Shown here piece by piece: positions 291 through 19,959 of a stretch of 64,000 bases of DNA. Source of the stretch: Dolomedes plantarius. Taxonomy: Eukaryota > Arthropoda > Arachnida > Araneae > Dolomedidae. Under the pieces are notes generated by a model that saw only the letters and a list, made by a program, of their open reading frames with translations, was not told where the DNA came from and ran no database searches. The stretch lies in assembly GCA_907164885.2 (NCBI GenBank), contig OU015496.1, positions 106,082,315 through 106,146,314 on the forward strand. The letters are read 5' to 3'. The position numbers were made by a program, and so were the translations under genes. The stretch's first letter is position 1. Each line of letters starts with the position of its first letter.

Positions 291-960
291 CTGAAGTACC
301 CGGCATTGCCCGGGATTTTAACAATATTTGTTAACCAAAATGAACACAGTATAAATAACATAGAAAAAGTATATGTGAAATGTTATACACATCTCAGAAT
401 TGAGGAATTTCAGCCTTTCATCATTGTAGCACTAAAATCTGAAAAGTAAAAATGTAAAATTGTCTAATGTTTGCTAACCAAAATTAATTTAAAACTAAAC
501 ACGTTATAAATAACATAGAAAAAAACATGTGAAATCTTATACACATGAATAAAATGAAAACCCAATAAAAAAATATATAAAATTATAATAAACTCCTCAG
601 AATTCAGCTAGATTTAGCCTTTTATCATTTGGGCAAAAAAAGAAGCTGAAATTACAGGTTTAGCAGAAATTTCTAATAGAACCATGATATGACTCTAGCG
701 TTGCCTCTTAAAAAATGAAGTGTTTGATTGAGGGCTGCAAACCATTCAACTCCTCTCCACATTAAACTCCTATAAAAATCCTCTACATATTAAATTCCTT
801 TTCTCTCCATAATAAACTCCTCAGAATTTTGGTAGATTCAGCTTTTCATCATAGTACCACTAAAACCTGAAACATCCTCTCCAGAAATATAAATTTATTG
901 ATTACAATAATTAAACTCACGCAAATGTATGAATTACATAAGTTTTTAACCAACATTTGA
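291..960 (+). repeat. Unclassified dispersed element body (copy 1)
   Basis: The stretch starts near CCCGGCATTGCCCGGGATTT. It repeats phrases such as GTATAAATAACATAGAAAAA internally and shares them in the same orientation with about 20940-21240. That makes it part of a dispersed, non-coding repeat family. I cannot assign the family from sequence alone. No gene is seen. Confidence 0.5.
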
Positions 961-971
961 ATAATTCGTAA

Positions 972-1673
972 ATGAAAAAGCATATGAAAATAAAGATAAT
1001 AAGAACTTCCGGAATCGAAATTAATTACCCTTAATTTTTAATTAATAAAAAACCAACATAATATGAATAAAAACGATAGTTGTTTAAAAGCATATGAAAA
1101 TAAAGCTATTATAAAGATAATAATAAAGAAAGCATATGAAAATAATGCTCGCGTATGAAGTTAACTTTATGATATAAAGATAGTAATAATAATATAAACC
1201 GCGTGCATAAAATATTTAGCTTTTCAAGCGAAATAAATTAATTTTTAGAAAGAAACTACTTTTAATCGAGAAATTAAATACATTGCACAAAATCCAATGG
1301 CACATATAAACTTCTCCATCGCATGAAAAAGCATATGAAAATAAAGATAATAAGAACTTCCGGAATCGAAATTAATTACCCTTAATTTTTAATTAATAAA
1401 AAACCAACATAATATGAATAAAAACGATAGTTGTTTAAAAGCATATGAAAATAAAGCTATTATAAAGATAATAATAAAGAAAGCATATGAAAATAATGCT
1501 CGCGTATGAAGTTAACTTTATGATATAAAGATAGTAATAATAATATAAACCGCGTGCATAAAATATTTAGCTTTTCAAGCGAAATAAATTAATTTTTAGA
1601 AAGAAACTACTTTTAATCGAGAAATTAAATACATTGCACAAAATCCAATGGCACATATAAACTTCTCCATCGC
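972..1673. repeat. Tandem duplication, 2 x 351 bp
   Basis: Copy 1 (972-1322) and copy 2 (1323-1673) read as identical by eye. The unit contains the truncated end of the piggyBac coding remnant (the part coding for GEVYMCHW) and AT-rich sequence beyond it. So the duplication happened inside the piggyBac remnant or its 3' flank. It is either a very recent duplication or a local assembly duplication. Confidence 0.85.
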
Positions 1674-1763
1674 ATCGGTAATCAAACTCTCCACGTTGAA
1701 ATTTCGATATTTCTTTAGCTGTTTTAAGAGAACATTGTCCCGTTCTGGAATCTCGCACTGTGC
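1620..1763 (-). pseudogene. piggyBac-like transposase, distal fragment
   Basis: Read on the minus strand, this encodes residues typical of the piggyBac catalytic region just after the GFKAIGT motif, including RGEFDYRCDGEV. It is the continuation of the fragment at 19290-19959. When one copy of the 4-bp duplication GTGC is removed, the two fragments join in a single open frame across the Gypsy insertion. Downstream of the CHW residues the similarity is lost and the C-terminal cysteine-rich domain is not seen. The fragment is therefore a dead, truncated transposase. What remains past it overlaps the 351-bp tandem duplication. Confidence 0.8.
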
Positions 1764-2215
1764 TGTAACGTCCTCGGTGGAAAAAGAAGACACGCGAGAG
1801 ACAATTTTGTAACACAGAGCTTGTATTAAACCAATAAAACTGTACTCTATGTACAAGACAGAGAGTCAAGGATCCTCTGCATATGAGAGGTTCTATAGGA
1901 ACCAAAATATCGTTTACAATAGCAGATGTATCTCTCCACTTGTAAAAACGGGAGCCGAGAGAGGAATTTTCAGGCCTTCGGTCCGCACAGCGCCCTATCG
2001 GCCCTGCTGTCGACGGACAGATGCGAGGCTCAATAATCAGCTACCTCTCTCCTTGCTTCCCCAAAAATCTCTGCGTCTCCTTTTCAGCCAGCTGGCCGGC
2101 GTGAGGGGGTTGCAGGAGCCACCCCCGATCGTTTCTTGGAAACGGGAAGAATTCGCAAAGGGATGGGCTTTTGCTTGGGTGGCCTTTTTCCCCCGAAAAG
2201 GGCCAAGACGTAACA
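1764..2215 (-). repeat. 3' LTR of the Gypsy element
   Basis: The 452-bp LTR has TGTTACGTC...GACGTTACA ends when read on the minus strand. It matches 18834-19289 along its whole length apart from scattered substitutions and homopolymer indels, so the insertion is not brand new. Open frames inside it (2037-2386) are spurious. Confidence 0.93.
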
Positions 2216-2216
2216 G

Positions 2217-2233
2217 TCTTTCCTTCCCCCTCC
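2217..2233 (-). other. Polypurine tract of the Gypsy element
   Basis: On the minus strand the purine run GGAGGGGGAAGGAAAGA lies directly before the 3' LTR. This is the expected position for the plus-strand DNA primer. It confirms the orientation of the element and the LTR boundary. Confidence 0.85.
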
Positions 2234-2594
2234 AATAAGTTTTCTTGCAGGGCTGGAAGAAAACTCGCTCACAAACACAAGAAAACTGCCCATGAAGATA
2301 TTCACGGTAAAAGCACTTAGCATTAAACATAAGGCAAGTGACCCACTAAAACATAATGGTACTAGTACTTTTACCATGCGAAACACATTATTAAGAAATT
2401 AAAAAATATATATTTATACACTCCACTTAACCTACAATTAACTTACTCCACTCTATATATATATTCAAGAACAATTTTTTACTCTTTTAAACATAAAAAA
2501 AACACAGTACACATTATTATTACAATTAATTCCTAAATTAATTTGTACATTAATAGGCATAAATTTTAGCGCGTCGATTGACATTGACATGAAT

Positions 2595-4367
2595 CTAATA
2601 AACTGCTGACCGGCTCAGACTGTCCGCGTTTTTGTTCAATCTACCAGGCCGATGTACAATCTCAAAGGAATACGGTTGCATTGCGAGAGACCAACGCATC
2701 AATCTTGGATTATTTCCCGAGTTTGTTTTCAACCACGTCAATGGGTTGTGGTCCGTTACCACCATAAATTTTTGCCCATCTAGATAATAATGTAGCCTTT
2801 TCAAGGCAAAAATTATCGCGGCACATTCTTTTTCCGTGGTGCAATAACGTTTCTCAACGTCGTTAAATTTTTTACTCAAGTAAATAATAGGATGTTCTGA
2901 TCCGCCCTCGTCTTCTTGAGTAAGCACTACACCCATTCCGACATCGGACGAATCCGTCTGCACTATGAATTCCCTTTTAAAGTTAGGCGCATATAACACA
3001 GGGGAATTCGTCAACTTATTCTTAAGTTCGGTGAATGCATTTTCGCATTCTTCCGTCCAAGTAATCTCCCCTCTTTTAGCCTTCCCTTTCAAAGCGTTGG
3101 TTAGCGGTGCGGCTAACGACGAGTACATGGGTATATATCGACTATAATAACCGACCAGCCCCCAAAATGCCCGAACCTGCGTTTTGGTTTTTGGGGTGGG
3201 GAAATCCAAAACCGCTTTAACCTTTGCCTCCGCTGGTTTTTTGAAGCCTTCCCCTACTATATGCCCTAAGTATTTGACATGATTTTGGGCGAAACGGCAC
3301 TTAGATGGTTTGATAGTGAGGTTTGCATTTGCGATTCGTTCTAAAACACAATTTAGATGTTTAAGGTGAGACTCCCAATTTTCAGAAAATATGGCAATAT
3401 CGTCCAAATAAGGGACAGCAAAAGCTTCGCATCCTTTCAATATCTGCGCCATTAATTTACTAAAGTAATAGGGGGCGTTTTTCAGTCCGAACGGCATGCG
3501 TAAAGGACGGTAGGTCCCAAAAGACGTCACAAAAGCGGCCAGCCTCTGAGCTTTAGTACTCATAGGTATTTGCCAATACCCTTTCGCCAAGTCTAAAATC
3601 GTAATATATTTTGCCGACGAAACCTGTTCTAACCTTTCTTCTATATTAGGCAGAGGGTAGAATTCTGTCCTAATGGCTTCGTTTAAGCGCCGATAATCGA
3701 TGCACGGCCGCGGATCCTTTCCAGGGGCTTCTACGAGAATCATCGGAGATGTGAAATCAGATTCTCCGACTTCTATGATTTGGAGATCTAACATCCTCTG
3801 TATCTCGACCCTTAATATTTCATTTTGTCTCAACGACAACTTATATGGCTTTGCCCTTATAGGTTGTTCTTTTAGGAGCTCGATATGGTGTTCAACCAAA
3901 TCGGCTCTTCCTGGCACATTAGAAAAAATCCGTGAGTAGCGTTTTAGCAAACTCTGTAATTCTGCGATCGATTCGGGAGCTAATTTATCAGAAAGCTTAC
4001 TCTCTTCCATTATTTGGGAAAAATCATAGATATTAGGATCTGTCTCTATGTAAGGGAAATCTATCTCTTGATCTATTACTTCTTTCCCCGCTTCACATCC
4101 CAAGAAATTGACGGCTTCGAGCCTCCTATAATACGGCTTCAGCATATTTACGTGATAAATTTGCGTTCTATCATTCCGGTCTGGCATCTGAACCACGTAA
4201 TTAGTTTCGGAGAGTTTTTGCCTAACTGCCCCTGGTCCTATCCATTGAGGTGCAAGTTTACTGGGTTTGGATACCGCAAAAATTAGCACACTGTCTCCCT
4301 CATGAAACTCGCGTTTTATAGCATTTTTGTCGTACCACCTCTTTTGCTTGTCCTGTACTTCCTCCAT
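2595..4367 (-). CDS. pol: Gypsy pol: integrase C-terminus, reverse transcriptase, RNase H
   Basis: A 590-codon open frame. Residues about 1-80 look like the tail of a Ty3/Gypsy integrase, ending at the HVNMLKPYY motif. A linker with an EHHIEL segment follows. The reverse transcriptase comes next, with the LDLAKGYWQIPM segment near 258-269 and the catalytic YLDD at about 320-323. RNase H occupies about 445-585, with QTDSS, TTEKEC, VTDHN and the terminal NADSLS motifs. After RNase H there are only about 360 nt before the polypurine tract, so no integrase lies downstream. The frame is intact, but the domain before residue 1 is in another frame (4316-5251), broken near an A run at about 4400. The first methionine is therefore probably internal to a longer polyprotein. 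Confidence 0.92.
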   Translation of the reverse strand: MEEVQDKQKRWYDKNAIKREFHEGDSVLIFAVSKPSKLAPQWIGPGAVRQKLSETNYVVQMPDRNDRTQIYHVNMLKPYYRRLEAVNFLGCEAGKEVIDQEIDFPYIETDPNIYDFSQIMEESKLSDKLAPESIAELQSLLKRYSRIFSNVPGRADLVEHHIELLKEQPIRAKPYKLSLRQNEILRVEIQRMLDLQIIEVGESDFTSPMILVEAPGKDPRPCIDYRRLNEAIRTEFYPLPNIEERLEQVSSAKYITILDLAKGYWQIPMSTKAQRLAAFVTSFGTYRPLRMPFGLKNAPYYFSKLMAQILKGCEAFAVPYLDDIAIFSENWESHLKHLNCVLERIANANLTIKPSKCRFAQNHVKYLGHIVGEGFKKPAEAKVKAVLDFPTPKTKTQVRAFWGLVGYYSRYIPMYSSLAAPLTNALKGKAKRGEITWTEECENAFTELKNKLTNSPVLYAPNFKREFIVQTDSSDVGMGVVLTQEDEGGSEHPIIYLSKKFNDVEKRYCTTEKECAAIIFALKRLHYYLDGQKFMVVTDHNPLTWLKTNSGNNPRLMRWSLAMQPYSFEIVHRPGRLNKNADSLSRSAVY

Positions 4368-5251
4368 GTTCTTAACTGCCGCTTCCTGGCATTTTTTAGC
4401 CGATTAATGAGTTTGAATATGTACTCAGTCACTGGTTCACTCTCCTCTGACGGATCTACCCACTGCTCATAAAGCAACGTCTCTGGGGTTCGCAAATTTC
4501 TCCCGTGAACTAATTCTGCAGGAGTAAACCTGGTTGACTCGTGCATGACCGTTCTTAGCGCGAATAAGGCTAACGGCAGATGTTTTTCCCAATCAGGGCC
4601 CGACTCTAAGCAAAGCGCCCTAATCAACCTTTTTAGGGTCCTGTGAAAACGCTCTACAGGATTTGATTGTGGGTGATGCACCGAGCTGTGCTTGGTCCGA
4701 ATTCCGAAACGCTCGAAAAATTCTGTCGTCAACGAACTTACAAATGAAGTCCCTTGGTCACATTGCACCTCTTTTGGAAATCCTAACCGACTAAAAATGT
4801 TCAGTAAGGCATCAGTAACGGAAATCGAACTTATGTGCTTTACAGGAATGGCGTCGGGATACTTAGACGACATACATATTGCCGTTATCAGGTAGCGCTT
4901 TCCACTAGGCGTTTCTGGTAGGGGACCGCACGCATCAACGTTAATTTTCGAGAAAACCTCTGTTATTATGGGAACAAGTGTTAGCGGTGCTTTCTTTTTC
5001 TCATTGGGTTTTCCCGCTCTTTGACACTGATCGCACGCGCGTACGAAGTCTTCCATCTCCTTGTAACATCCAGGCCAAAAGAAATGTTGCGTAAGTTTGT
5101 TTTTAGATTTAGTAAAACCTAGGTGGGCCGATGTTCCCTCATGACACAAAGTCATTACCCGACTTCTGAATTTTTTTGGCATTACAATTAGCCTTTTCAG
5201 TTTTCCCATATGGTCCTTCTGAAAACGAAATAATATCTCATTTTCCGTCAT
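4316..5251 (-). pseudogene. pol: Gypsy integrase (zinc-binding and catalytic core), frame-broken
   Basis: The frame encodes a retroviral-type integrase. The HHCC zinc domain uses H37, H43, C73 and C76. The catalytic triad is D106, D165 and E200, in VDACG, QCDQGTSF and NPVERFHR. Coding similarity extends upstream to about 5290. The frame is separated from the protease frame by a one-base shift at a run of nine A residues (minus strand) near 5288-5296. It is separated from the RT frame by a shift at an A run near 4400. The integrase lies upstream of RT, which is the reverse of the standard Ty3/Gypsy order. The last 27 or so residues of this frame are out-of-frame translation. Confidence 0.9.
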
Positions 5252-5294: not shown

Positions 5295-5957
5295 TTAATT
5301 CAAAGCTTGCAGACTAGGACATGATTTTTGCTCCTTAATCAAGTTCTCCCGCTTAACTTTCAAGAGCGTCAACTCGCCCGCGCTCTCCTCACTTGGGGGT
5401 ATTAGTATTTCCTCCCCTTTCGCTAACGGCTCGGGAGCTCCCACTAGCTCCGAAATTCTTCTCTGTTCAATCTCCACAGTGCCGTTCCCCCGCTGGTTTG
5501 TTTCGATTTCCCCTTCTCGTTTCCGTTGAGCGCGGGTTTGCACTGCGCACAAAATCGGCATGTCTTGGGGCGACAACTGGCTTTGTTTTGCCTTTCCGAG
5601 CAACTTTGCCGTACTATTTCCCAACAAATAACGCCCTCGGTCGAGATTTGCCGACGTCACTGCAGCTTGGGTCACTATTTTACCGAAGTCGCTCTCCATT
5701 ACTACCTGCGCGAGCGGCAAACACCTGGGGTATTTATCTAACGGTTGTTGTAACCACAGATTCTCTCCCGTAAACATTTCTGGATCGACGTATTTTCGGC
5801 TAACCAGATCAATCGTAGCTCCTGTATCACGTAAAATATCAATGGGCATACCGTTTACCTTTCCCCTTGTTGAAAAAGGCCTCAATAATTCTTCCTGGGT
5901 TTCTCCTGAAATTTGGTTTACAGCAGCCCTTCCCTTTTGAGGGCACTGGGGTTTCAA
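5295..5957 (-). pseudogene. pol: Gypsy protease region of gag-pol, frame-broken
   Basis: This frame contains an aspartic protease core with the DTGAT active-site motif in PIDILRDTGATIDLV. A protease-like body with LLGNSTAKLLG follows. The beginning of the frame (KPQCPQKGR) is the end of the gag zinc knuckle CYICNSPNHLKPQC at 5943-5984, so gag and protease were once read together. A charged linker leads to the integrase, where an A9 run breaks the frame. The first methionine shown is unlikely to be a real start. Confidence 0.85.
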
Positions 5958-6908
5958 ATGATTTGGGGAGTTACAGATATAACATCTGGGAAAATTCCGT
6001 TTTTCAAACCCCTTTCTGCTCCCGTTTTGTCCCCTCTCGCTGGCTCTTTCTTAACGAGTTTCGGTTGTGTGGGGCCCGTATTTTTCCCCCTGACTTCCTC
6101 ATAATTATCGAGCAGGTCAGCTAATTTGGAAGGTGAAGTTATACGAACCCATTGGTCGATGAAATGATCTCTAACTTCGGGTTTCACTCGTCGTTTCAGC
6201 TGCCCGGTAACCATCAGCTCTTTTAAAGCCTCGAAATCAGCTATTTTTAGACTCTCTAGCCAATTGTCTAAATAGACTTTAAGATCATATGCGAAGTCTT
6301 TCCACATAGTCTCAGCCGGCCGTTGGCTATTCATGAACTTCGTGCGAAAAGTTTCGGGTCCTAGTTTAAAACGATTTAACAGTATTTGTTTTATGTGATC
6401 ATAATCACGGTAATTCTCCTCACTTTCCCTTCCCAAAACTTCGGCTACCTCACGATTCAAACGCGACACTAAAACCGTTACCCAATCTTCTCTCTCGATA
6501 TTTAATAATTTAGCCTGTCTCTCAAACAATACCAAATATTTGGTTATGTCCCCGTCTTTAGAGTCAAAAGCCGGCAGAAGACTCATATCGCAACGCAATT
6601 TTTTCCCTTCCGATCTGGACTCATTACTATTTCTCGATATCGACCTAGCCTCATTTTCTATTCTCAGTCTTTCCAATTCAAAAACTCTGTCCTCCTGCCG
6701 TTTTTTTTCTGATAATTCCTCCTGACGTTTTTTCTCAAATTCCTCCCGAAAAGCTTCCAGACGTCCCTGAATCATTTCTTCGTCAAATTCGGGGCTTTTT
6801 TTTTATAAGAGCAATTATTTGAATGGATCTTTTATTTTCCGATTCAATCCCTAATTCTTGCGCGAGATGCGCCAATTCGTGGGGTTGTGCTTTATTTAAG
6901 AAAGCCAT
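5954..6908 (-). pseudogene. gag: Gypsy gag, frame-broken
   Basis: The likely start is the ATG at 6908 (MAFLNKAQPHELAHLAQ). The frame shifts at a homopolymer around 6798-6806 and continues as the long frame from 6775. The N-terminal part has a lysine/glutamate-rich coiled-coil-like stretch (EFEKKRQEELSEKKRQE). A capsid-type domain follows, with the segment NRFKLGPETFRTKF and a GQLKRRVKP stretch. A second shift just before the end puts the CCHC knuckle (5943-5984) into the protease frame. In function this would be the structural protein of the virus-like particle. The 5' leader of gag is interrupted by the palindromic element 105 nt upstream of the ATG. Confidence 0.85.
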
Positions 6909-7007: not shown

Positions 7008-7013
7008 TATACT
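7008..7013. repeat. Target-site duplication TATACT, left
   Basis: This 6-bp copy directly abuts the left end of the palindromic element and is identical to 18174-18179. It belongs to the host Gypsy leader. Confidence 0.88.
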
Positions 7014-7020
7014 AGTAGAT

Positions 7021-7140
7021 AGAAATTGGGGAATCACCAACAATCGGGGCGGGCAGCGGTGCACGGTGCAAGTGGGGCGTGGCCTCTTGATGACGTCACC
7101 GCTCCCTGGCGGCGTTTTTGAGTCAATCAGGAGAAGGCAA
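7021..7140. promoter_or_regulatory. GC-rich terminal module with a full CRE palindrome
   Basis: The arm tip is strikingly GC-rich (for example GGGGCGGGCAGCGG) in an AT-rich element. It contains TGACGTCA at 7091-7098, a perfect CRE/ATF site. The mirror copy lies at 18089-18096. It could be a promoter or a transposase-binding tip. Function is inferred from composition only. Confidence 0.4.
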
Positions 7141-7147
7141 TAATCTT

Positions 7148-7723
7148 AGCGCCCCCTTGCGGGAAAACCTGGAACCTTGTAGTACAGCAGAATCTTGAAG
7201 AGAGTATGTGCTCCGGGGAGCGCCACCTATAGGTCAAATATGGAACTAAATTACGTATAAGGTTACGGATCTATATTTTCAGTGCTGCCATCTATTTTAT
7301 AAAAACACAACTGAATTTTACATTTAATTTTACAGAAGATATATATTTTTAGAAGTTTGTCCTGAGCGGGGATCGAACTCTGGTCCAACAGGTCTCAAGT
7401 CCAGTGAGATAACCACTGGGCTGTCGAAGCTTGTCATTATACGGTATTATAAGGTATTTAAAGAGTGAATATTTTAAAGGGAACTTGAGAAATATGATAG
7501 AGGATTCTGCGGTATATTATTTGAATTAGTTAATTAATTAATTAATTATTTTTTTAATATAATACATACTAAGCACCCCCTAGCGGAAAAAACTTGAACT
7601 AAACTAGAACTTTAAATATTTAAGATTGTAAAACGATTTTACGCCGTTAGCAACATTAGTGATTAAATTTAACTTTTGAAAATATTCTTTAGGAAATTTT
7701 ACGCTGCAGGCGCCATCTATTGG
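7148..7723. promoter_or_regulatory. Cluster of five CTCF-like motifs, left arm
   Basis: Similar motifs occur at 7148-7162 (AGCGCCCCCTTGCGG), 7219-7233 (AGCGCCACCTATAGG), about 7283-7298 (TGCTGCCATCTATTTT), 7572-7586 (AGCACCCCCTAGCGG) and 7709-7723 (GGCGCCATCTATTGG). All point the same way. Their reverse complements resemble the CTCF consensus CCASYAGRKGGCRSY, with one or two mismatches for four of the five. A similar motif also occurs in other transposons in this window. Confidence 0.4.
7361..7425 (-). repeat. tRNA-like relic with pol III A and B boxes, left arm
   Basis: On the minus strand the stretch resembles a tRNA-derived SINE head. An A-box-like CAGCCCAGTGG and a B-box-like GTTCGATCC are spaced about 45 nt apart. 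The T-arm does not pair properly, so it is not a functional tRNA gene. Confidence 0.5.
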
Positions 7724-8062
7724 TAAAAATTACAACTACATTTAAAATTTAATTTTGTAAAAGGCTTTATTTTAGTTTAAATTCTAAATTAAAATATATT
7801 ATTAACTTACTATTTTTTTAACGATAGTAGTAATTAGTAAAAAATAATTATAATTACTTATTATTACTTTAAAGACATATCTAATTTATAAATAATATTT
7901 GAAAAAATATTCTATTAAAAGGAGTATTTACAAGTCTTTTAACATTAAATCTATAAGAGAAGATATTAACAAGGATATTTTTACGCATAAAATTATTCAG
8001 AACAGCTGTTAAATTTAAAATATCTTTAATTTTCATGCTAATATCAATTTCAAGTGTAATAT

Positions 8063-9330
8063 AATTTAGATATATCTTTAAACCCATTTAAACATAACTT
8101 GAAGACTTTAAATTATACAATTACCATCCAGAACCTGAAACTTAAAAATGTATTCGTCAATTTGATTATCTTTATACAGTTTATGTGCTGTTTTAAATGT
8201 ATTTTTTAAACCTTAAATGTTTTTAACAGATAAACAAAACTTGAAAACCATAAAGTAAAGGCGTACTTAATGCATTGAGAAATCTAAAACCTATATCTTA
8301 CTTTGACTAAAGCGTATGCTTTCTTCTAATGCATATACTAAAATGTCATACTAAAATTAAAAAACATTTTATAGAGATAAAGACTTTTGATAGCATTTAA
8401 ACATAAAATGATTTTGTTATCTTTAAACCCATTTAAACATAACTTGAAGACTTTAAATTATACAATTACCATCTAGAACCTGAAACTTAAAAATGTATGC
8501 GTCAATTTGATTATCTTTATACAGTTTATGTACTGTTTTAAATGTATTTTTTAAACCTTAACTGCTTTTAACAGATAAACAAAACTTGAAAACCATAAAG
8601 TAAAGGCGTGCTTAATGCATTGAGAAATCTAAAACCTATATCTTACTTTGACTAAAGCGTATGCTTTCTTCTAATGCATATACTAAAATGTCATACTAAA
8701 ATTAAAAAAACATTTTATAGAGATAGACTTTTGATAGGGTTTAAACATAAAATGACTTTGTTATCTTTAAACCCATTTAAACATAACTTGAAGACTTTAA
8801 ATTATACAATTACCATCTAGAACCTGAAACTTAAAAATGTATGCGTCAATTTGATTATCTTTATACAGTTTATGTGCTGTTTTAAATGTATTTTTTAAAC
8901 CTTAAATGCTTTTAACAGATAAACAAAACTTGAAAACCATAAAGTAAAGGCGTGCTTAATGCATTGAGAAATCTAAAACCTATATCTTACTTTGACTAAA
9001 GCGTATGCTTTCTTCTAATGCATATACTAAAATGTCATACTAAAATTAAAAAACATTTTATAGAGATAAAGACTTTTGATAGAGTTTAAACATAAAATGA
9101 CTTTGTTATCATTAAGCCCATTTAAACATAACTTGAAGACTTTAAATTATGCAATTACCATCTAGAACCTGAAACTTAAAAATGTATGCGTCAATGTGAT
9201 TATCTTTATACAGTTTATGTACAGTTTTGAATGTATTTTTAAACCTTAAGTTCTTTTACCAGATAAACAAAACTTGTAAACCATGAATATCCACTTTATC
9301 ATGTTTAAAAGATTCACATAAGTTAACTTC
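8063..9330 (+). repeat. Tandem repeat, about 345 bp x 3.6, left arm
   Basis: The phrase AACCCATTTAAACATAACTT recurs near 8081, 8426, 8769 and 9115 (once with a base change), a spacing of 343-346 bp. Each unit also contains an ATTACCATCTAGAACCTGAA-like segment. The unit is AT-rich and non-coding. The last unit is truncated and divergent. Confidence 0.85.
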
Positions 9331-11187
9331 ACTTTAGAAGTACGCATAAAATTATTCAAACAAAATGAGAATTCCCCAGTAGGGTTATTTTTTCCTTTTA
9401 ATATTAGAAATAAAAACTAAAATATGATTCAATCTTGATAATTCTTTAAATTAAATATACATATCATAACAATCCATACTATTAAATCTGCAAGAGAAGG
9501 TATCAAATTTGTCTCGCGATGTTAATAGAGAAGATTCTTACATTATCATAAATAATACAGACTTTATTATTTTTAGAAGATATTTACATGAGTTCATTTT
9601 AGAAGTAATTGAATCAAGGTTTGAATCCTACAGCAGTAAGGGGTATGTGCAAACATGAAGACTTTAAATAATACAATTTCCATCTAGAACCTGAAACTTA
9701 AAAATATATGTATCAATTTAAGTATCTTTATATAGTTTATGTACAGTTTTGAATTTATTTCAAACCATAAGCATTTTTAAAACTTTGAATCTATGTTATA
9801 AGTTATGACGCTTACTAAAATTAAAAACATTTTATAGAGATAAAGACTTGAAAGATAAAATTTACAAGTTTTAATCCTAAATATTATATCTTATCCAGAA
9901 ATGTAGACTATTAATATATTATTTTAAACCTTACATGTTTTCAACGATTACCTAAATTGCGATATAATGTTAAATTCCACAGATTATTTCACAGATTTTA
10001 AGATATTTATTTAACCTAAGATGTTTATAAATCCTATCCAAATTGGAATAGTGTTTGCGTATCATCATAAACAACTAAATATTATCATTTTCATGGGTTT
10101 TAAGGTTTTTATTCAACATAAGATGTTTATAAATCCTACCTAAATTGGAATAGTTTCTGCATATCAACATAGACTGCGTAAACAACCAAATATTAACTTA
10201 ATTTAAATAAGAGCATATAATTTCCTTTTTGATAACTTAAATATATATATATCATACATGTTGCTAAATTAAAATTCTTGTTATACTTTCGTATAAGATA
10301 GTTTTTTTACATACAAGAACAGAAATAATATAGACTTTATTATGTTTAGAAGATTTGCAGATATTTAAAGCAGTTCACTTAACTTTAGAAGTAAATGGAT
10401 CAGAGTTTGAATTCTACTGCAATAGAGGTAGTTTAACTTCACAATTATAATCTAAACAGATAACAAATCTTTGAAAAAAATATTCTATAAAAAGCAATAA
10501 AATATATTATGGAAACTTCAAATTAATTTATGATAGGTTTCATTAAATATTCTGCAAACGCTATGAAACATTTCGTATAGAAAATAATTACCATTTGATC
10601 TTACCTTTAAAATCTATAGTTTATGCACTTAATTCATATAATTTTTACAAAAACAAGCTTTAAACTGCATAAGAAGATATTATATTTGTCCCGCACATAC
10701 ATATAAACTTAAAACATATTAAAACTTACTAGTTCCCTTATAAAGGTTTCAAGATTTAAAAAATTTTTTACTATGTTTTAAATCTAATCTATAATTTTAC
10801 ATAGATATAACCATTAATAAATTGTTTTACATAGAAAAAAAGCATACATTGCACCTAAAATTTTAGTTTTCTTAACAAAATAACCTGCAAAACTTTCATC
10901 GAAACAAATGTTTATTATGTTAAAAAAATCAAACACCTATTGATATTACTTTGAAATATTATGCAAATAATAACTTTAAATAAGTTTTACATCAGAAATT
11001 ATTTTCCGACAATTGTTAAAAAAATTTATACTATAAGTTTAAAACGCTTCCTAACACTTAAAATTTTATCATTCTATAAGGAGTATAATTTCTTTTAAAT
11101 CATGCATAAACATCTATATATTAACATAATTTACATAATAGCATATGACTTCCTTTTAATAACATAAATATACATATCATAAATGTT

Positions 11188-12705
11188 GCTAAATTAAAAT
11201 TCATGATATACTTTCGTATAAGATAGTTTTCTACATGCAATTACCCAAAATATTTTATCCATACAGCAACAGATATAATACAGACTTTATCATGTTTAGA
11301 AGATATTTACATGAGTTCATTTTAGAAGTAAATTGACCAAGGTTTAAATCTTACAGTGGTAGGGGTATACGCAGACAATATTTTTATATGAGAACCTACT
11401 TACAATAGATCTTAAAATTAAAATAAGTTTTGTTAAGAATAAAACTCTGCTGTAGATTTTATAATCTAAGCATATACCACACTGTCATAGTTAACATTTT
11501 CAAAACTTAATGGTTTAAAATATATTATTATAAAACATATAAAATACTTACGGCATTAGTAGAAATATTCTGCATTGGAAAAAAATCTGGAGCTTATAAT
11601 TAGCCATACTTCTAAAACGAGACCCAATTGAAAAATATACAAGTCACGTTAGTTAATCTTGATTATCTGCGGTTAATTTTCCGTTACAGTCACAGTTATC
11701 TTCTCAAAATGAATCAATGATAAGATAAATAATTATTTTGCTATCATTTAACGAATCGTTCACGTTCCTTTTATTTTATTTGTCAAGAGTTGCCAAGAGT
11801 TGGCAACGATTGTAGAACGACTTTCAAAAATCTAACCCCTAGTGTTTACACAGGAAGTAGATTGTTATTATCTTATACACGAGAGTATACTGTGGGAAAA
11901 GATCAGATAATATGTTTAATCAAAGTTAAACAATTGATACACGTTTTGCTAACCAAAACTTTATTCGATAGGTTAATTTTCAAATCTGAAACAAGCTTTG
12001 CTAACTGTTAATACAGTTTATTAATGTTGTTAATAGAGTTTTTAATAACGAAGTTGTTCGATTAATGCTTGCAAAACTGCAACTACTAAGTTGATCGAAT
12101 ATATATTAAATTGTATTAAGTTAAAATTCTAGTTTTCACATGGAAAACATTATGCAACATAAGTATTAAAATTAAGTCTTTGAAATATTCTATAAAAAGT
12201 AATGAAATATACTATGGAGACACTTACCCATTGTTGCTAAGCTTGGCATTAATTAATAAAATAATTATAAAGATCTATTAATAATACTTTGAAATATTCT
12301 GTAAAAGGTAACTTAGAATAACTTTTAAACATGATTATTCTATAAAAAATACAATATTATCAGTAACAGCAGCAGATAGTATATTCAAGATTATTGAAAA
12401 CAACGTAACAGAGAATAAAATTTTAGATTATAAAGCAACAAAGGCTAATTTTCAAATGTACACTGTCAACGTCTACTATCACTATTTTACGATTCATTGA
12501 AGTGGAATTTATAGTTAAGTTCTTATTCTCACTTAACATTTTAATAACTTAAAAGTTTAACGTTGTATTGTACAACCGACACTTATCAGAATAATATAAA
12601 TTGCTAGTAATCTTATCTAATGACGAAATAAAATAAACTATGAGTCATAGAAACTTATCTTATCTGATATAGCGATTCATTCGACAAAAAAAAAAACCTT
12701 TTAAT
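11188..12705. other. Loop of the palindromic element, upstream of its gene
   Basis: AT-rich, unpaired sequence. Its first part (11188-11400) repeats motifs from the arms (compare 9530-9650 and 10258-10440), so the loop grew from arm-like sequence. The short frame at 11790-12011 has no recognisable similarity and is not called. Confidence 0.5.
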
Positions 12706-12711
12706 TCAGTC
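12706..12711 (+). promoter_or_regulatory. Initiator-like motif TCAGTC
   Basis: It matches the arthropod initiator TCAGTY, 70 nt upstream of the ATG. No convincing TATA box precedes it. It is a plausible transcription start for the loop gene, on weak evidence. Confidence 0.35.
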
Positions 12712-12775
12712 GCTTGCTAGATTTTCAATCGGAGAGGGCTGTTTTAGAGTGCTTGTGCTGTTTATCTGTTAGATT

Positions 12776-13735
12776 ATGAAACCTGCATTTAAAAAAATGA
12801 AGGAACAGCTTGTTCCCGAAAAAGATTGGTATGAGCAAAATTATGAAAATATAGATTTTTGCATGCATAATTTTGCTGAAGGAATCTTAAATGTTTTAAA
12901 AATTGAACAGAGAGAAAAAGAAGTTAATTGCTTCGGCCCATCAATGATAAAATATTTCAATCTTGGATGTAATATTCTTGGATGTAATGTTTTTGCAACT
13001 GTCCACATGCATATCAGTGGTGCAGCAGTCCACATCACTAAATTTAAAGAAAGTCACCTACATAAACTTCAAAGGGAAAAAGGAGTGTCAATGCATGGAG
13101 ATACCTGGATTGAATTTAATAAGAAACTTCCTACCATCTCAACTGAATATAAAGACACTTCATGTATTGCAAACAACGAAATAATCGCTATTATAGATCA
13201 GGAAGTGTGTATTCTACAGGGGATGTATCGCATGAAAAATGCTAATTATGACTTAGATTCCGGAATTAAGTTGAATAGATATGAACTAAAACAACTTTGT
13301 GATTATGCTTCAGACATTACAGACTGTGTCGAACACACAATTTTATGTCGTACTTTGCCTCACATTCTACAAGAAAATATTGCCGATTCCATCTCCGATT
13401 GTTTTAAAGAACATTGTAATGTAGATGATGCGCTTGAAAATTTTTTCAGATGTGTTAAACAAGAACTGTTCAATGTATGTCATAAACTGTTTAAATGTGA
13501 AGGATGTATTATGAACCACCCCTCCCAATATCAACATTTGTGTCTAAAAAGCAGTGCTTTAGAAAAATATAAGAGTCTTGGTAAAATACCAATTTTTCAT
13601 ATAAGTATTCAAGATATTGTTAAAAATATATGTGATACATATTGTACATGTGCATACATTAATACTGAAATTTTTAAAAATTTTTGCGTCGATGATTTTA
13701 AATACTATTTCGAAAACGGAATAGTTAAAGTGTAA
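12776..13735 (+). CDS. Unrecognised 319-aa cysteine-rich protein, cargo gene of the palindromic element
   Basis: A complete 320-codon frame, ATG to TAA, in AT-rich sequence where stops should be frequent. It is very unlikely to be open by chance. I do not recognise the protein. It has no signal peptide and no obvious membrane segment, so it is probably intracellular. Cysteines are abundant, with pairs such as CEGC in a CEGCIMNHPSQYQHLC stretch near residues 242-257 that could bind zinc. The C-terminal part has CDTYCTC. The N-terminus is lysine-rich. An initiator-like TCAGTC lies 70 nt upstream and AATAAA follows the stop by 82 nt, so it looks like a single-exon transcription unit. Being the only intact gene, it is either the element's own factor or captured cargo. 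It shows no motif of a known transposase, polymerase or capsid protein. Confidence 0.85.
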   Translation: MKPAFKKMKEQLVPEKDWYEQNYENIDFCMHNFAEGILNVLKIEQREKEVNCFGPSMIKYFNLGCNILGCNVFATVHMHISGAAVHITKFKESHLHKLQREKGVSMHGDTWIEFNKKLPTISTEYKDTSCIANNEIIAIIDQEVCILQGMYRMKNANYDLDSGIKLNRYELKQLCDYASDITDCVEHTILCRTLPHILQENIADSISDCFKEHCNVDDALENFFRCVKQELFNVCHKLFKCEGCIMNHPSQYQHLCLKSSALEKYKSLGKIPIFHISIQDIVKNICDTYCTCAYINTEIFKNFCVDDFKYYFENGIVKV

Positions 13736-13817
13736 ATACTTTTGGATTATTCTAATGATTTGAAATTTCACTCTAAGGAATATCTTCAAGAATTGTAAGA
13801 ATTTTTTAGATATGTTA

Positions 13818-13823
13818 AATAAA
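13818..13823 (+). terminator. Polyadenylation signal AATAAA
   Basis: It lies 82 nt after the stop of the loop gene. This is the expected position for its 3' end and places the transcript wholly within the loop, before the right arm at 13945. Confidence 0.6.
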
Positions 13824-15849
13824 GGTTGCTTTAAGAATGAATTATTCCTTTTTTTATGTCTATGTGTGTTTTAATGTAAATGATGTCTTAAAAATTATTT
13901 AATGATATCAAAAAATATTTATTATAATTTAAAGATATATTAATAACATTTATGATATGTATATTTATGTTATTAAAAGGAAGTCATATGCTATTATGTA
14001 AATTATGTTAATATATAGATGTTTATGCATGATTGAAAAGAAATTATACTCCTTATAGAATGATAAAATTTTAAGTGTTAGGAAGCGTTTTAAACTTATA
14101 GTATAAATTTTTTTTAACAATTGTCGGAAAATAATTTCTGATGTAAAACTTATTCAAAGTTATTATTTGCATAATATTTCAAAGTAATATCAATAGGTGT
14201 TTGATTTTTTTAACATAATAAACATTTGTTTCGATGAAAGTTTTGCAGGTTATTTTGTTAAGAAAACTAAAATTTTAGGTGCGATGTATGCTTTTTTTCT
14301 ATGTAAAACAATTTATTAATGGTTATATCTATGTAAAATTATAGATTAGATTTAAAACATAGTAAAAAAAATTTTAAAGTCTGAAACCTTTATAAGGGAA
14401 CTAGTAAGTTTTAATATGTTTTAAGTTTATATGTATGTGCGGGACAATATAATATCTTCTTATGCAGTTAAAGCTTGTTTTTGTAAAAAATTATATGAAT
14501 TAAGTGCATAAACTATAGATTTTAAAGGTAAGATCAAATGGTAATTATTTTCTATACGAAATGTTTCATAGCGTTTGCAGAATATTTAATGAAACCTATC
14601 ATAAATTAATTTGAAGTTTCCATAATATATTTATTGCTTTTTATAGAATATTTTTTTCAAAGATTTGTTATCTGTTTAGATTATAATTGTGAAGTTAAAC
14701 TACCTCTATTGCAGTAGAATTCAAACTCTGATCCATTTACTTCTAAAGTTAAGTGCACTGCTTTAAATATCTGCAAATCATTTCTAAACATAATAACGTC
14801 TATATTATTTCTGTTCTTGTGATGTAAAAAAAACTATCTTATACGAAAGTATACAAGAATTTTAATTTAGCACATGTATGATATATATATATATTTAAGT
14901 TATCAAAAAGGAAATTATAGCTCTTATTTAAATTAAGTTAATATTTGGTTGTTTTACGCAGTCTATGTTGATATGCAGAACTATGTATGTCCCAATTTAG
15001 GTAGGATTTATAAACATCTTATGTTGAATATATACCTTAAAACCCATGTAAATGAAATATTTAGTTGTTTATGATGATATGCAAACACTATTCCCAATTT
15101 GGATCAGGATTTATAAACATCTTAGGTTAAATAAATAATCTTAAAATCTGTGAAATAATCTGTGGAATTTAGCATTATATCGCAATTTAGGTAATCGTTG
15201 AAAACATGTAAGGTTTAAAATCATATATTAATAGTCTACATTTCTGGATAAGATATAATATTTAGGATTAAAACTTGTAAATTTTATCTTTCAAGTCTTT
15301 ATCTCTATAAAAAGTTTTTAATTTTAGTAAGCGTCTTAACTTATAACATAGATTCAAAGTTTTAAAAATGCTTATGGTTTGAAATAAATTCAAAACTGTA
15401 CATAAACTATATAAAGATACTTAAATTGATACATATATTTTTAAGTTTCAGGTTCTAGATGGAAATTGTATTATTTAAAGTCTTCATGTTTGCACATATC
15501 CCCTTACTGCTGTAGGATTCAAACCTTGAATTCAATTACTTCTAAATGAACTCATGTAAATATCTTCTAAAATAATAAAAGTCCTGTATTATTTATGATA
15601 ATGTAAGAATCTTCTCTATTAACATCGCGAGACAAATTTGATACCTTCTCTTGCAGATTTAATAGTATGGATTGTTATGATATGTATATTTAATTTAAAG
15701 AATTATCAAGATTGAATCATATTTTAGTTTTTATTTCTAATATTAAAAGGAAAAAAATAACCCTACTGGGGAATTCTCACTTTGTTTGAATAATTTTATG
15801 CGTACTTCTAAAGTGAAGTTAACTTATGTGAATCTTTTAAACATGATAA

Positions 15850-17110
15850 AGTGGATATTCATGGTTTACAAGTTTTGTTTATCTGGTAAAGAACTTAAGG
15901 TTTAAAAATACATCAAAACTGTACATAAACTGTATAAAGATAATCAAATTGACGCATACATTTTTAAGTTTCAGGTTCTAGATGGTAATTGTATAATTTA
16001 AAGTCTTCCAAGTTATGTTTAAATGGGCTTAAAGATAACAAAGTCATTTTATGTTTAAACTCTATCAAAAGTCTTTATCTCTATAAAATGTTTTTTTAAT
16101 TTTAGTATGACATTTTAGTAATGCATTAGAAGAAAGCATACGCTTTAGTCAAAGTAAGATATAGGTTTTAGATTTCTCAATGCATTAAGCACGCCTTTAC
16201 TTTATGGTTTTCAAAGTTTTGTTTATCTGTTAAAAGCATTTAAGGTTTAAAAAAATACATTTAAAACAGCACATAAACTATATAAAGATAATCAAATTGA
16301 CGCATACATTTTTAAGTTTCAGGTTCTAGATGGTAATTGTATAATTTAAAGGTCTTCAAGTTATGTTTAAATGGGTTTAAAGATAACAAAGTCATTTATG
16401 GTTTAAAACCCTATCAAAAGTCTGTCTCTATAAATGTTTTTTAATTTTAGTATGACATTTTAGTATAATGGCATTAGAAGAAAGCATACGCTTTAGTCAA
16501 AGTAAGATATAGGTTTTAGATTTCTCAATGCAGTAAAGCACGCCTTTACTTTATGGTTTTCAAGTTTTGTTTTCTGTTCTAAGCATTTAAGGTTTAAAAA
16601 TACAACTTTAAAACAGTACATAAACTGTATCAAGATAATCAAATTGACGCATACATTTTTAAGTTTCAGGTTCTAGATGGTAATTGTATAATTTAAAGTC
16701 TTCAAGTTATGTTTAAATGGGTTTAAAGATAACAAAATCATTTTATGTTTAAACGCAATCAAAAGTCTTTATCTCTATAAAATGTTTTTTAATTTTAGTA
16801 TGACATTTTAGTATATGCATTAGAAGAAAGCATACGCTTTAGTCAAAGTAAGATATAGGTTTTAGATTTCTCAATGCATTAAGTTACGCCTTTACTTTAT
16901 GGTTTTCAAGTTTTGTTTATCTGTTAAAAAGCTTTAAGGTTTAAAAATACATTTAACAGCACATAAACTGTATAAAGATAATCAAATTGACGAATACATT
17001 TTTAAGTTTCAGGTTCTGGATGGTAATTGTATAATTTAAAGTCTTCAAGTTATGTTTAAATGGGTTTAAAGATATATCTAAATTATATTACACTTGAAAT
17101 TGATATTAGC
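15850..17110 (-). repeat. Tandem repeat, about 345 bp x 3.6, right arm
   Basis: The mirror of the left-arm array. The inverted unit recurs near 16010, 16360, 16710 and 17050. Small unit-specific indels differ from the left arm, so the arms have diverged since the last homogenisation. Confidence 0.85.
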
Positions 17111-17449
17111 ATGAAAATTAAAGATATTTTAAATTTAACAGCTGTTCTGAATAATTTTATGCAGTAAAAATATCCTTGTTAATATCTTCTCTTATAGATT
17201 TAATGTTAAAAGACTTGTAAATACTCCTTTATAATAGAATATTTTATTCAAATATTATTTAATAAATTAGATATGTCTTTAAAGTAATAATAAGTAATTA
17301 TAATTAATTTGTTGTACTACAATTACTACTGATCGTTAAAGAAAATAGTAAGTTAATCATATTATTTTTAATTGTAGAATTTAAAAAACTAAAATAAAAA
17401 CCTTTTACAAAATTAAATTTTACATGTAGTGGTAATGTTTACCAATAGC

Positions 17450-18032
17450 ATGGCGCCCTGCAGCTGTAAACATTTCCTACAAGAATATTTTCAAAAGTTA
17501 AATTTATGTCACTACATGGTTGCTATACGGCGTAAAAATCGGTTTATACAATCTTAAATATTTAAAGTTCTAGTTTAGTTGTCAGAGTTTTTTCCGGCTA
17601 GGGGGTGCTTAGTATGTATTAATATTAAAAAAATAATTAATTAATTAATTACGAATTCAAATAATATACACGCAGATCCTCTATCATCATTTCTCAAGTT
17701 CCCATTTACAAATATTCTCACTCTTTAAATACCTTATAATACCGTATAATGACAAGCTTCGACAGCCCAGTGGTTATCTCACTGGACTTGAGACCTGTTG
17801 GACCAGAGTTCGATCCCCGCTCAGGACAAACTTTTAAAAATATATATCTTCTGTAAAATTAAATGTAAAATTCAGTTGTGATTTTTATAAAATAGATGGC
17901 AGCACTGAAAATATAGATCCGTAACCTTATACGTAATTTAGTTCCATATTTGACCTATAGGTGGCGCTCCCCAGAGCACATACTCTCTTCAAGATTCTGG
18001 TGTACTACAAGGTTCCAGGTTTTCCCGCAAGG
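17450..18032. promoter_or_regulatory. Cluster of CTCF-like motifs, right arm
   Basis: The mirror of the left-arm cluster. CCGGCTAGGGGGTGCT lies near 17595, AATAGATGGCAGCA near 17890, CCTATAGGTGGCGCT near 17955 and CCGCAAGGGGGCGCT near 18025. The innermost copy near 17452 carries a small insertion (CCAATAGCATGGCGCC). Four of five sites are kept in both arms. Confidence 0.4.
17761..17827 (+). repeat. tRNA-like relic with pol III A and B boxes, right arm
   Basis: The mirror copy of 7361-7425, oriented toward the element's right end. The A box lies near 17763-17773 and the B box at 17808-17816. Any pol III transcript from it would read outward through the arm tip into the flanking Gypsy leader. 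This is an inference. Confidence 0.5.
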
Positions 18033-18173
18033 GGGCGCTAAGATTATTGCCTTCTCCTGATTGACTCAAAAACGCCGCCAGGGAGCGGTGACGTCATCAA
18101 GAGGCCACGCCCCACTTGCACCGTGCACCGCTGCCCGCCCCGATTGTTGGTGATTCCCCAATTTCTATCTACT

Positions 18174-18179
18174 TATACT
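18174..18179. repeat. Target-site duplication TATACT, right
   Basis: This copy is identical to 7008-7013 and directly follows the right end of the palindromic element. Confidence 0.88.
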
Positions 18180-18833
18180 TAATAGTAATCCGATAAAACA
18201 GATTTTAGTAAAACCACAAGAGTAACTCAGTTAAAAATTAAAGCATAACTTTTAAAAATAACTTTAAAACTCTTAAACTAGCAGTTAAAACACAATCAAA
18301 TATCCTATTCTTAACATTTCACACAATAAAAAAAATAAAGAGAACTATCAGGTTTTAAATTTCAAATGGCCTAAAACACTGAAACATAACTTTCAATTTT
18401 GAACTGCAATAAGTTAGAACACAAAAAACATAAAATTTCCTATCCAAAATTTTAAAAAAAATGGTCACTGCCTTAATGATTAGCTAAGCACTTACCCCGT
18501 TTTGCAGAAACACATCAGCAGGACAGGCACCACACTTCTACTGAACAAGGAGACATTTCTTGTAAATTCAAATAACACCAAATTTTTTTTACAACGTTCA
18601 CGGCAACGCACAGTTTTTTTCTTTGTTGTTGAAGATACTTCGATGACACACAGGAACCAGGACTGGTGGCGTCCTCACACTTTTTCACGTAAGATGGAAA
18701 GTCGAAGAGTCGAAGATAGCACGAGAGGATAAGACTCTCAAACAGGACAGCGTCCTAAACACGTTCGAACTGAACACAAATAGATTCTTGCGTGATTTGC
18801 ACGTATCTCGCCGTGGCTCCTCCATTATAACTC
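18180..18833 (-). other. 5' leader of the Gypsy element
   Basis: Non-coding sequence between the 5' LTR and the palindromic insertion. It continues at 6909-7013 up to the gag ATG. The primer-binding site should begin next to the LTR. TGGAGGAGCCACGG lies about eight bases inside, but I cannot assign its tRNA. The plus-strand frame at 18502-18732 has no recognisable similarity. Confidence 0.55.
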
Positions 18834-19289
18834 TGTAACGTCCCTCGGTGGAAAAAGAAGACACACGAGAGACAATTTTGTAACACAGAGCTTGTATTAA
18901 TCCAATAAACTGTACACTATGTACAAGACAGAGAGTCAAGGCTCCTCTGCATAATGAGAGGTTCTATAGGAACCAAATATCGTTTACAATAGCAGATGTA
19001 TCTCTCCACTGTGTAAAACACGGGAGCCGAGAGAGGAATTTTCAGGCCTTCGGTCCGCACAGCGCCCTATCGGCCCTGCTTGTCGACGGACAGATGCGAG
19101 GCTCAATAATCAGCTACCTCTCTCCTTGCTTCCCCAAAAATCTCTGCGTCTCTTTTTCTGCCAGCTGGCCGGCGTGAGGGGGTTGCAGGAGCCACCCCCC
19201 GATCGTTTCTTGGAAACGGGAAGAATTCGCAAAAGGATGGGCTTTTGCTTGGGTGACCTTTTTCCCCCGAAAAGGGCCAAGACGTAACA
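18834..19289 (-). repeat. 5' LTR of the Gypsy element
   Basis: The 456-bp copy of 1764-2215 with the same TG...CA ends. It directly abuts the duplicated GTGC at 19290-19293. An AATAAA-like stretch occurs near 18901. Frames crossing into it from the piggyBac fragment are read-through artefacts. Confidence 0.93.
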
Positions 19290-19959
19290 GTGCCGATTGC
19301 CTTAAAGCCATCGTTAGATAAATCTGTCAGCGAGCTGTACGATGTAAAAAAAGTATCGAAAAATATTTGCGTTCTTCTCTGGATTGTCAATAAAAGATAA
19401 TAGTTCGGAGACAACTTTTGATTCAAGTGGCAAATTTTCATTTTTCGAACTTTTTCCACCGTAGATAGACATAGCATAAGGATAAACCATTTGCTGAGCA
19501 GATTCATCCAACTTTGGAAAACAAGCGGAATTGGCTTTCCACGTATGAACACCTAGAGCCAAACGAGTCCATAACACGGAAACCATGGATTCATCGATAC
19601 TCATATTTTCAATGAAAAAAATCCAAATTGACGAAATTTTTTTCCCAACCTCTTTATAAAAGAGAATTTTCTAATTTATCGCCTGGTTCCAATTTACTAT
19701 TATCAACAATGTGGAAATACTTTTTTAACATCCGAAATTTATTTCTGGGCATTGTATTGTTAACAATTAGGATATGCAAATCTTCCTGAGAGCTCCAATA
19801 TGTATTTTCATCAGGTACTGAGTGGTAGCCACTAAACAACAGTAATCCAAGAAACTGCCGAATGTCATTTGCGTCGACGTCTAAAGAGTCTCCTTTTTGC
19901 AGGGCATACAGCTTTGTAAGTTCGGCTGAATTTTCTAAGTAATCAGACGGCAGAATCAC
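19290..19959 (-). pseudogene. piggyBac-like transposase, proximal fragment
   Basis: The minus strand encodes pieces of a piggyBac transposase. IRQFLGLLLFSGYHSVPDEN and WSSQEDLHILIVNNTMPRN come first. A frame break follows, then MSIDESMV, a degenerate segment, and FFTSYSSLTDLSNDGFKAIG at the insertion point. The order matches the family's catalytic domain. The N-terminal acidic region is missing and at least two frame shifts are present, so it is dead. The Gypsy element inserted inside the GFKAIGT codons, and the rest is at 1620-1763. Confidence 0.88.

Follow-up and report, generated by a model that had tools for sequence, protein, structure and literature searches.

Introduction

Polintons, foldback elements and the defective palindromic genomes of viruses are already known kinds of genetic element, and each resembles in some respect the element described here. 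Foldback/Galileo elements of the P superfamily encode a P-like transposase and generate target site duplications (TSDs) longer than 6 bp. In adenovirus and other linear replicons, symmetric defective genomes contain two copies of one genome end as an inverted dimer, and in parvoviruses a dimer palindrome is formed by copying around a hairpin during rolling-hairpin replication. Polinton/Maverick elements (polintoviruses, adintoviruses) have 6-bp TSDs (PMC10045372). Here we analyse a stretch of 64,000 nucleotides from the spider Dolomedes plantarius (assembly GCA_907164885.2, contig OU015496.1, positions 106,082,315 to 106,146,314; hereafter the window), which contains a palindromic Polinton-type element of 11,160 bp at 7014..18173. 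Our analysis indicates that this element is likely a decayed copy from a family of non-autonomous (satellite) Polintons that are inverted dimers when intact, and whose arms are probably re-equalised in the replication cycle. No heritable, high-copy, fully palindromic Polinton satellite was found in the literature searched, which included the relevant parts of PMC2836005, PMC6431247 and PMC10045372 and did not extend to Repbase.

The palindromes resemble Polintons in their 6-bp TSD, in the AGTAG tips that they have in common with two Polinton families of this genome and in one homologous gene, but they are complete inverted dimers, and none of their tested frames matches a polymerase, integrase, ATPase or protease. 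With Foldback/Galileo elements they share inverted repeats that are very long and contain tandem repeats, but they differ in their 6-bp TSD, their Polinton tips, the presence of a gene in both arms and the absence of a transposase domain from the tested frames. Like the defective genomes of the adenovirus type, they comprise two copies of one end as an inverted dimer; unlike these, they are integrated, number in the scores of copies, and have a conserved spacer and a retained gene. Finally, the dimer palindrome may arise, as in parvoviruses, by copying around a hairpin, although no rolling-circle nickase was identified in the palindromes and their ends are of the Polinton type.

Results

Intact copies are palindromic over their whole length

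A first-pass annotation of the window had described an 11.16-kb element with inverted arms of about 4.2 kb, AG...CT termini and an exact TATACT duplication, and our analysis confirms this description. The element, to which no strand is assigned, is flanked by exact 6-bp TSDs at 7008..7013 and 18174..18179 (both plus strand) and has the tips AGTAGATAG...CTATCTACT (AGTAG...CTACT), and its arms align at 96.66% over 4,252 columns, with 41 mismatches and 93 gap openings. Relatives were sought in the window's own genome (2.78 Gb, 390 contigs). Matches to the terminal 300 bp, of which the best 40 of 758 candidates were scored, mostly form inverted pairs, and the 15-bp tip is present at 87 + 81 exact places, compared with 10 + 5 for a reversed-pattern control. 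Among the matches listed (100 of the 168 tip places, contigs C1-C7), there are at least 41 inverted tip pairs; 24 of these 41 span 13-17 kb, and one is a 19.3-kb Polinton described below.

The ends and duplications of other copies, which the annotation had proposed as a check, proved consistent. Both tips and their flanks were read in 17 copies, with the window copy included and copy G (match short of the tip) and L055-L057 (single end) left out. Each of the 17 bears the tip AGTAGATAGAAA, and the 6-bp TSD is exact in 16, mostly with different sequences, while that of copy D has one mismatch. Two of the 17 are odd-sized, namely F at 2.5 kb (read at its tips and flanks) and B at 24.1 kb. Copy B contains, at L026:4802-6913 (C3:65114001-65122262), a 704-aa frame with a sub-threshold Retrotrans_gag match (2.6e-4), and a nested long terminal repeat (LTR) element could possibly account for its size. 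When viral contigs were searched with the 18-bp tip, the one match (L001) fell within a phage-like frame and was taken as chance.

Intact members measure 13-15 kb and are organised as tip, arm, short spacer, arm and tip, with the gene in each arm. Compared piece by piece, the arms of copy A align over 6,975 columns at 99.97% with 0 mismatches and 2 gaps, those of copy J over 7,240 columns at 99.92% with 0 mismatches and 6 gaps, and those of copy E over 7,259 columns at 99.93% with 2 mismatches and 3 gaps. Identity is 99.94% over 5,276 columns in copy H and 99.63% over 5,728 in copy D, and the arms of copies I and C match in blocks of 98.7-99.6%. The spacer at the centre is short and unique, measuring about 42 bp in most of the copies read, with some 20 bp more in E and J, and occurs in either orientation. 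A 35-mer from it has 75 exact places genome-wide and its reversed control none, and the exact spacer lies within 25 of 40 tip pairs. Of these 25, 19 are 13.2-15.4 kb long, with spacer-to-tip lengths that range between copies from 6,612 to 7,692 bp; in these intact copies, the left and right spacer-to-tip lengths agree to within 0-3 bp in 10, and the two sides are 13-40 bp apart in 7 and 104-118 bp apart in 2. The remaining six pairs are lopsided, and include the window copy, C3:21380461 (4,555/7,129) and C7:97905823 (4,305/6,818). The spacer also sits between both gene frames in 30 of 39 convergent gene pairs.

The window copy lacks part of one half

In the window copy, the outer left arm (7014..11187, plus strand) pairs with the right arm (13945..18173, minus strand), and the stretch between them (11188..13944, plus strand), which comprises the inner left arm and the centre, is unpaired. 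This stretch contains the exact spacer 35-mer (13904..13938, plus strand; C6:106096218-106096252), a 319-aa frame (12776..13735, plus strand) and a candidate 92-aa open frame (11733..12008, plus strand) that is open in most copy pieces read and belongs to no known family. Positions 11103-13950 align with the inner arm of intact copy J at 96.3% over 2,857 columns, and the left half of the window copy corresponds to J until just beyond the centre. The window copy thus consists of an intact left half and a right half that is short of about 2.65 kb beside the centre, and its spacer-to-tip distances are 6,907 and 4,252 bp. Judged from this alignment, the apparent loop is inner left arm whose right-hand partner was lost. 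The annotation had seen the arms as the main body of the element, which holds in a stronger form given that intact copies are all arm; the single gene that it placed in the loop is an effect of the deletion, as intact copies have the gene once per arm.

Each arm of the window copy also carries 3.5 copies of a tandem repeat, with a unit of 345 bp on the left (8073..9284, plus strand) and 348 bp on the right (15861..17074, minus strand). Extra bases are commoner in the right arm, 13945-18173 (40 gap events in the left row of the alignment versus 13 in the right row), and private indels are found in the right-arm tandem units, with few in those on the left. This excess may stem from a consensus of poorer quality in one of the palindrome arms, or from decay. 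By eye, 7345-7440 resembled a tRNA, a reading that neither ARAGORN nor Rfam supported.

The palindromes share ends and a gene with Polintons

Scoring of the best 91 of 188 candidates gave 53 matches in the genome to the polymerase family PolB (PF03175), and 17 of these fall in open frames of at least 1,000 aa. One belongs to the 19.3-kb element at C6:78060177-78079480, which has the 15-bp tip at each end, a 551-bp inverted repeat (99.6%) and the TSD TACCCT; a frame of 1,269 aa towards one end gives the PolB match, and an rve integrase core (E 2.1e-15) lies towards the other. A polymerase- and integrase-bearing element with the same tips, for which the annotation had suggested looking, is thus present in this genome, and its common tip and 6-bp TSD support the suggestion that the window element is a non-autonomous Polinton derivative. 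The first 40 bp of this Polinton are those of copy D, and the terminal region of the palindromes (7014..7174 in the window, plus strand; BLAST) matches it at 75-82% over about 160 columns in the copies compared. For the window copy, the BLAST match covers element positions 45-162 at 77%, in addition to the 15-bp tip, and a second segment (7356..7451, plus strand) corresponds to the Polinton's inverted repeat at 91.7% over 96 columns. Among the 100 tip places covered, a PolB match lies within 30 kb of a tip only at this element. A reverse-transcriptase-like frame, recognised by eye at L064:2272-3387, is nested inside the same Polinton.

A second Polinton family was sampled in two copies, with one end reached in each. 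It has a PolB frame of 1,208 aa, starts with AGTAGT and matches palindrome positions of about 90-280 at 80-86%. An AG start, which we take to be general among Polintons, is observed on both families. The second family gives a Pox_A32 match (4.7e-8) of the packaging-ATPase type and a weak adenovirus-protease match (5.4e-4) below the curated cut-off, and no integrase was found among its tested frames. Importantly, it encodes a homologue of the palindrome gene, a 364-aa frame at L061:4764-5858 (tblastn 39% over 251 aa, E 5e-54), which is broken in the other sampled copy (L058).

Pfam gave no polymerase, integrase, ATPase, protease or capsid match in the palindrome frames tested, which were selected frames. 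The annotation's statement that Polinton genes are all absent is nevertheless not right, as the sole gene that is present has its homologue in a PolB-bearing Polinton. On the strength of these sequence comparisons, the palindromes are non-autonomous derivatives of Polintons, with ends of the Polinton type and a single Polinton gene. L057 (C7:120041495-120051494) and L055 (C1:16950324-16960323) are diverged or shortened relatives bearing the family tip; in L055, the right end of a 3.5-kb element closely resembles the C6 Polinton (94.7% over 284 columns). Elsewhere, C9:18628174-18655813 has five same-strand PolB matches, spaced at 5.4-10.7 kb and with one TAG in each, and is possibly a tandem array of a Polinton fragment. 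The small contig C311, with nine PolB matches at seven sites, is possibly Polinton-rich.

The gene product

The 319-aa frame has no relative in Pfam (no match beyond chance at E up to 10), PHROG, the PDB (as a single sequence), the protein database or viral contigs. A shorter gene homologue in L057 is matched by the Polinton homologue (tblastn E 3e-10), and neither the L057 frame nor the Polinton homologue has a protein-database relative. Compared directly, the 319-aa and L057 frames are not significantly similar by BLASTP and reach 2 of 1000 in a shuffling test; they are linked through the Polinton homologue. A profile of four sequences (A3) was compared with the PDB at E up to 10, and six of its seven matches are PC4 or MoSub1 chains, representing two proteins; the matches are weak, with a best E of 0.025 at profile positions 78-140, and the N-terminal region had first been likened to PC4 by eye. 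Cys and His residues of the C-terminal half are kept between the window frame and the Polinton homologue. The product is thus possibly a PC4-like single-stranded-DNA-binding protein. A HUH-nickase reading, based on HMH and YxxK motifs seen by eye, was dropped because the Polinton homologue does not retain them. The frame contains no stop in 117 of 125 scored gene matches, and the gene region is not clearly more conserved than the remaining inner arm.

Differences between copies are mostly present in both arms

Substitution rates between arms and between elements were taken from the best high-scoring segment pair (HSP) of each pair, with HSP lengths of about 750 to 5,000. Arm-arm substitutions are 0.00% in A and J, 0.02% in E and H, 0.16% in D, 0.53% in C, 0.56% in I and 0.80% in B (748 columns only), and the window copy, at 0.96%, has the highest value of the nine. 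Substitutions between different elements range from 0.24 to 8.7%. In four-way alignments, differences found in both arms outnumber those in one arm by 13 to 2 for E-J, 55 to 1 for H-A and 95 to 0 for J-A. This indicates that mutations reached the other arm after the copies had separated. One-arm differences number 83-93 in the window copy, 20-24 in C and 3-8 in D, counts that are inflated by poorly aligning tandem repeats. The copy number of these repeats is the same in the two arms of the window copy, A and D but not in those of C and I; no arrays were obtained for E, J or H.

The 125 gene matches scored (of 963 candidates) include 39 convergent pairs, no divergent or tandem pairs and 47 matches unpaired in that list. 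Scores are equal in 20 of the 39 pairs, and the mean difference is 2.2 bits within pairs versus 11.9 in random pairs. A stop is present in 8 of the 125, and in both arms of 2 pairs (positions not matched up). Along the arm, the window copy (9345-13950) differs from L039 in a patchy manner, by 0-9% per 200 bp and, in the final bin, at the centre, by 14%; this pattern suggests that family members recombine with one another.

Discussion

Our results suggest a replication cycle in which one arm probably either serves as the template for a new copy of the other or, within a hairpin, is used to correct it. The family was probably founded when the end of a Polinton snapped back during strand-displacement synthesis, by analogy with the symmetric defective genomes of adenovirus. 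Full Polintons would provide a protein-primed polymerase and an integrase in trans, as the common tips and 6-bp TSDs suggest, and the strand displaced in replication would fold at the spacer into a hairpin of about 7 kb. The arms could then be made identical by copying around the hairpin, by second-strand synthesis from a half-length template or by mismatch correction in the stem. For this step, the differences in both arms are observed, and the timing before insertion and the hairpin route are our proposal. An integrase would insert the linear duplex, leaving the 6-bp TSDs that are observed. After insertion the arms would diverge, and parts beside the centre could be lost from one half, as is observed for the window copy and suggested, by lengths only, for two similarly lopsided copies. 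Because a self-complementary strand released by strand displacement should fold, a hairpin stage would explain most simply why the arms are equal and the spacer is spared. We would place homogenisation within the cycle, before or at insertion, because the arms appear to diverge afterwards, the window copy, in a host with about 12 LTR substitutions in 466 aligned columns, having the highest arm divergence of the nine.

Several points weigh against this interpretation. Fifteen of the 40 tip pairs lack the exact spacer, and the only parts of the arms that match the Polinton pieces read are the gene, the outer 0.45 kb or so and patches to about 2.9 kb. For the gene, dN/dS does not fall clearly below 1 (0.23-1.14 in 14 of 15 pairs and undefined in one, with few changes). 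For the PC4 likeness, a profile without the Polinton homologue (A1) has no PDB match, and the Pfam PC4 model matches none of the frames at E up to 10. We infer the hairpin, the extrachromosomal form and the use of polymerase and integrase in trans alike. Chromosomal conversion could likewise yield identical arms, and in three of the five stop-bearing gene pairs only one arm carries the stop. This last observation slightly lowers our confidence in the satellite model as a whole and slightly raises that in conversion.

Conversion as a rival explanation holds that the arms are kept alike after insertion by chromosomal gene conversion, as in sex-chromosome palindromes, with no involvement of the transposition cycle. 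Conversion between palindrome arms is well known, and the patchy divergence along the arm in the window copy and J makes exchange between copies probable. However, arm divergence is graded across copies, from 0 to 0.96%, all 95 counted differences between A and J are in both arms, and the window arms have diverged in a host with LTR differences at about 12 of 466 columns, indicating that conversion is not holding this copy identical. Conversion soon after insertion is compatible with each of these points; overall, we regard a purely chromosomal origin of the equal arms as unlikely.

We consider it very improbable that the family is a foldback-type DNA transposon (Galileo/Foldback-like, P superfamily) or an IS3EU or Ginger2 element with its own transposase. 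Very long, internally repeated inverted repeats recall Galileo (PMC3573991), IS3EU usually has 6-bp TSDs (PMC10045372) and Ginger2 has 6-bp targets (PMC2836005). In contrast, the 319-aa frame has no transposase domain in Pfam, the AGTAG...CTACT tips differ from the TA..TA and TGTNR given for IS3EU and Ginger2 in those same two sources, and a PolB/integrase element bears the same tip. Inheritance of the dimer as a fixed structure, with arms alike only since all copies are very young, would fit the several copies with arm substitutions of 0-0.02%, but elements at least 0.24% apart keep near-identical arms and their differences lie in both arms (13 of 15 for E-J, 95 of 95 for J-A); homogenisation therefore took place after the elements separated, which contradicts this idea for A, E, H and J and leaves it hardly credible. 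An assembly or sequencing fold-back artefact deserves equally little credence: long palindromes are hard to assemble and the window right arm is richer in extra bases (40 vs 13 gap events), but the flanks differ with exact 6-bp TSDs at 16 of 17 copies and the unique spacer is central in 19.

If arms are indeed re-equalised in the replication cycle, it is tempting to speculate that the family represents a new type of replicon, a suggestion about which we have somewhat more doubt than confidence. Such a heritable palindromic-dimer Polinton satellite would pass through a half-length hairpin in each cycle, turn around at the spacer, use its own PC4-like protein to handle single strands and start each new insertion with perfectly matched arms; in it, a protein-primed transposon would have evolved hairpin replication of the parvovirus kind. 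Although long perfect palindromes are regarded as unstable, many of about 14 kb are present in this large eukaryotic genome, and in several the two arms are identical or nearly so. The family would be a natural system for studying how symmetric defective genomes arise from a protein-primed transposon, by what means palindromes persist or become trimmed, and what role an unassigned Polinton gene plays. In addition, arm-arm divergence may act as an internal clock for each insertion.

The host element and its neighbourhood

The window copy is inserted in an LTR element on the minus strand, whose 3' LTR (1763..2217) and 5' LTR (18833..19291; both minus strand) are 96.5% identical, with about 12 substitutions in 466 aligned columns, some at padded edges, and with GTGC outside each LTR. 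The insertion point lies between the 5' LTR and a putative gag frame (5954-6775), and an H2C2/rve integrase frame is present at 4316-5251 (Pfam). A fragment of a piggyBac-type transposase (DDE_Tnp_1_7, PF13843) at 19654-19959 adjoins the host element.

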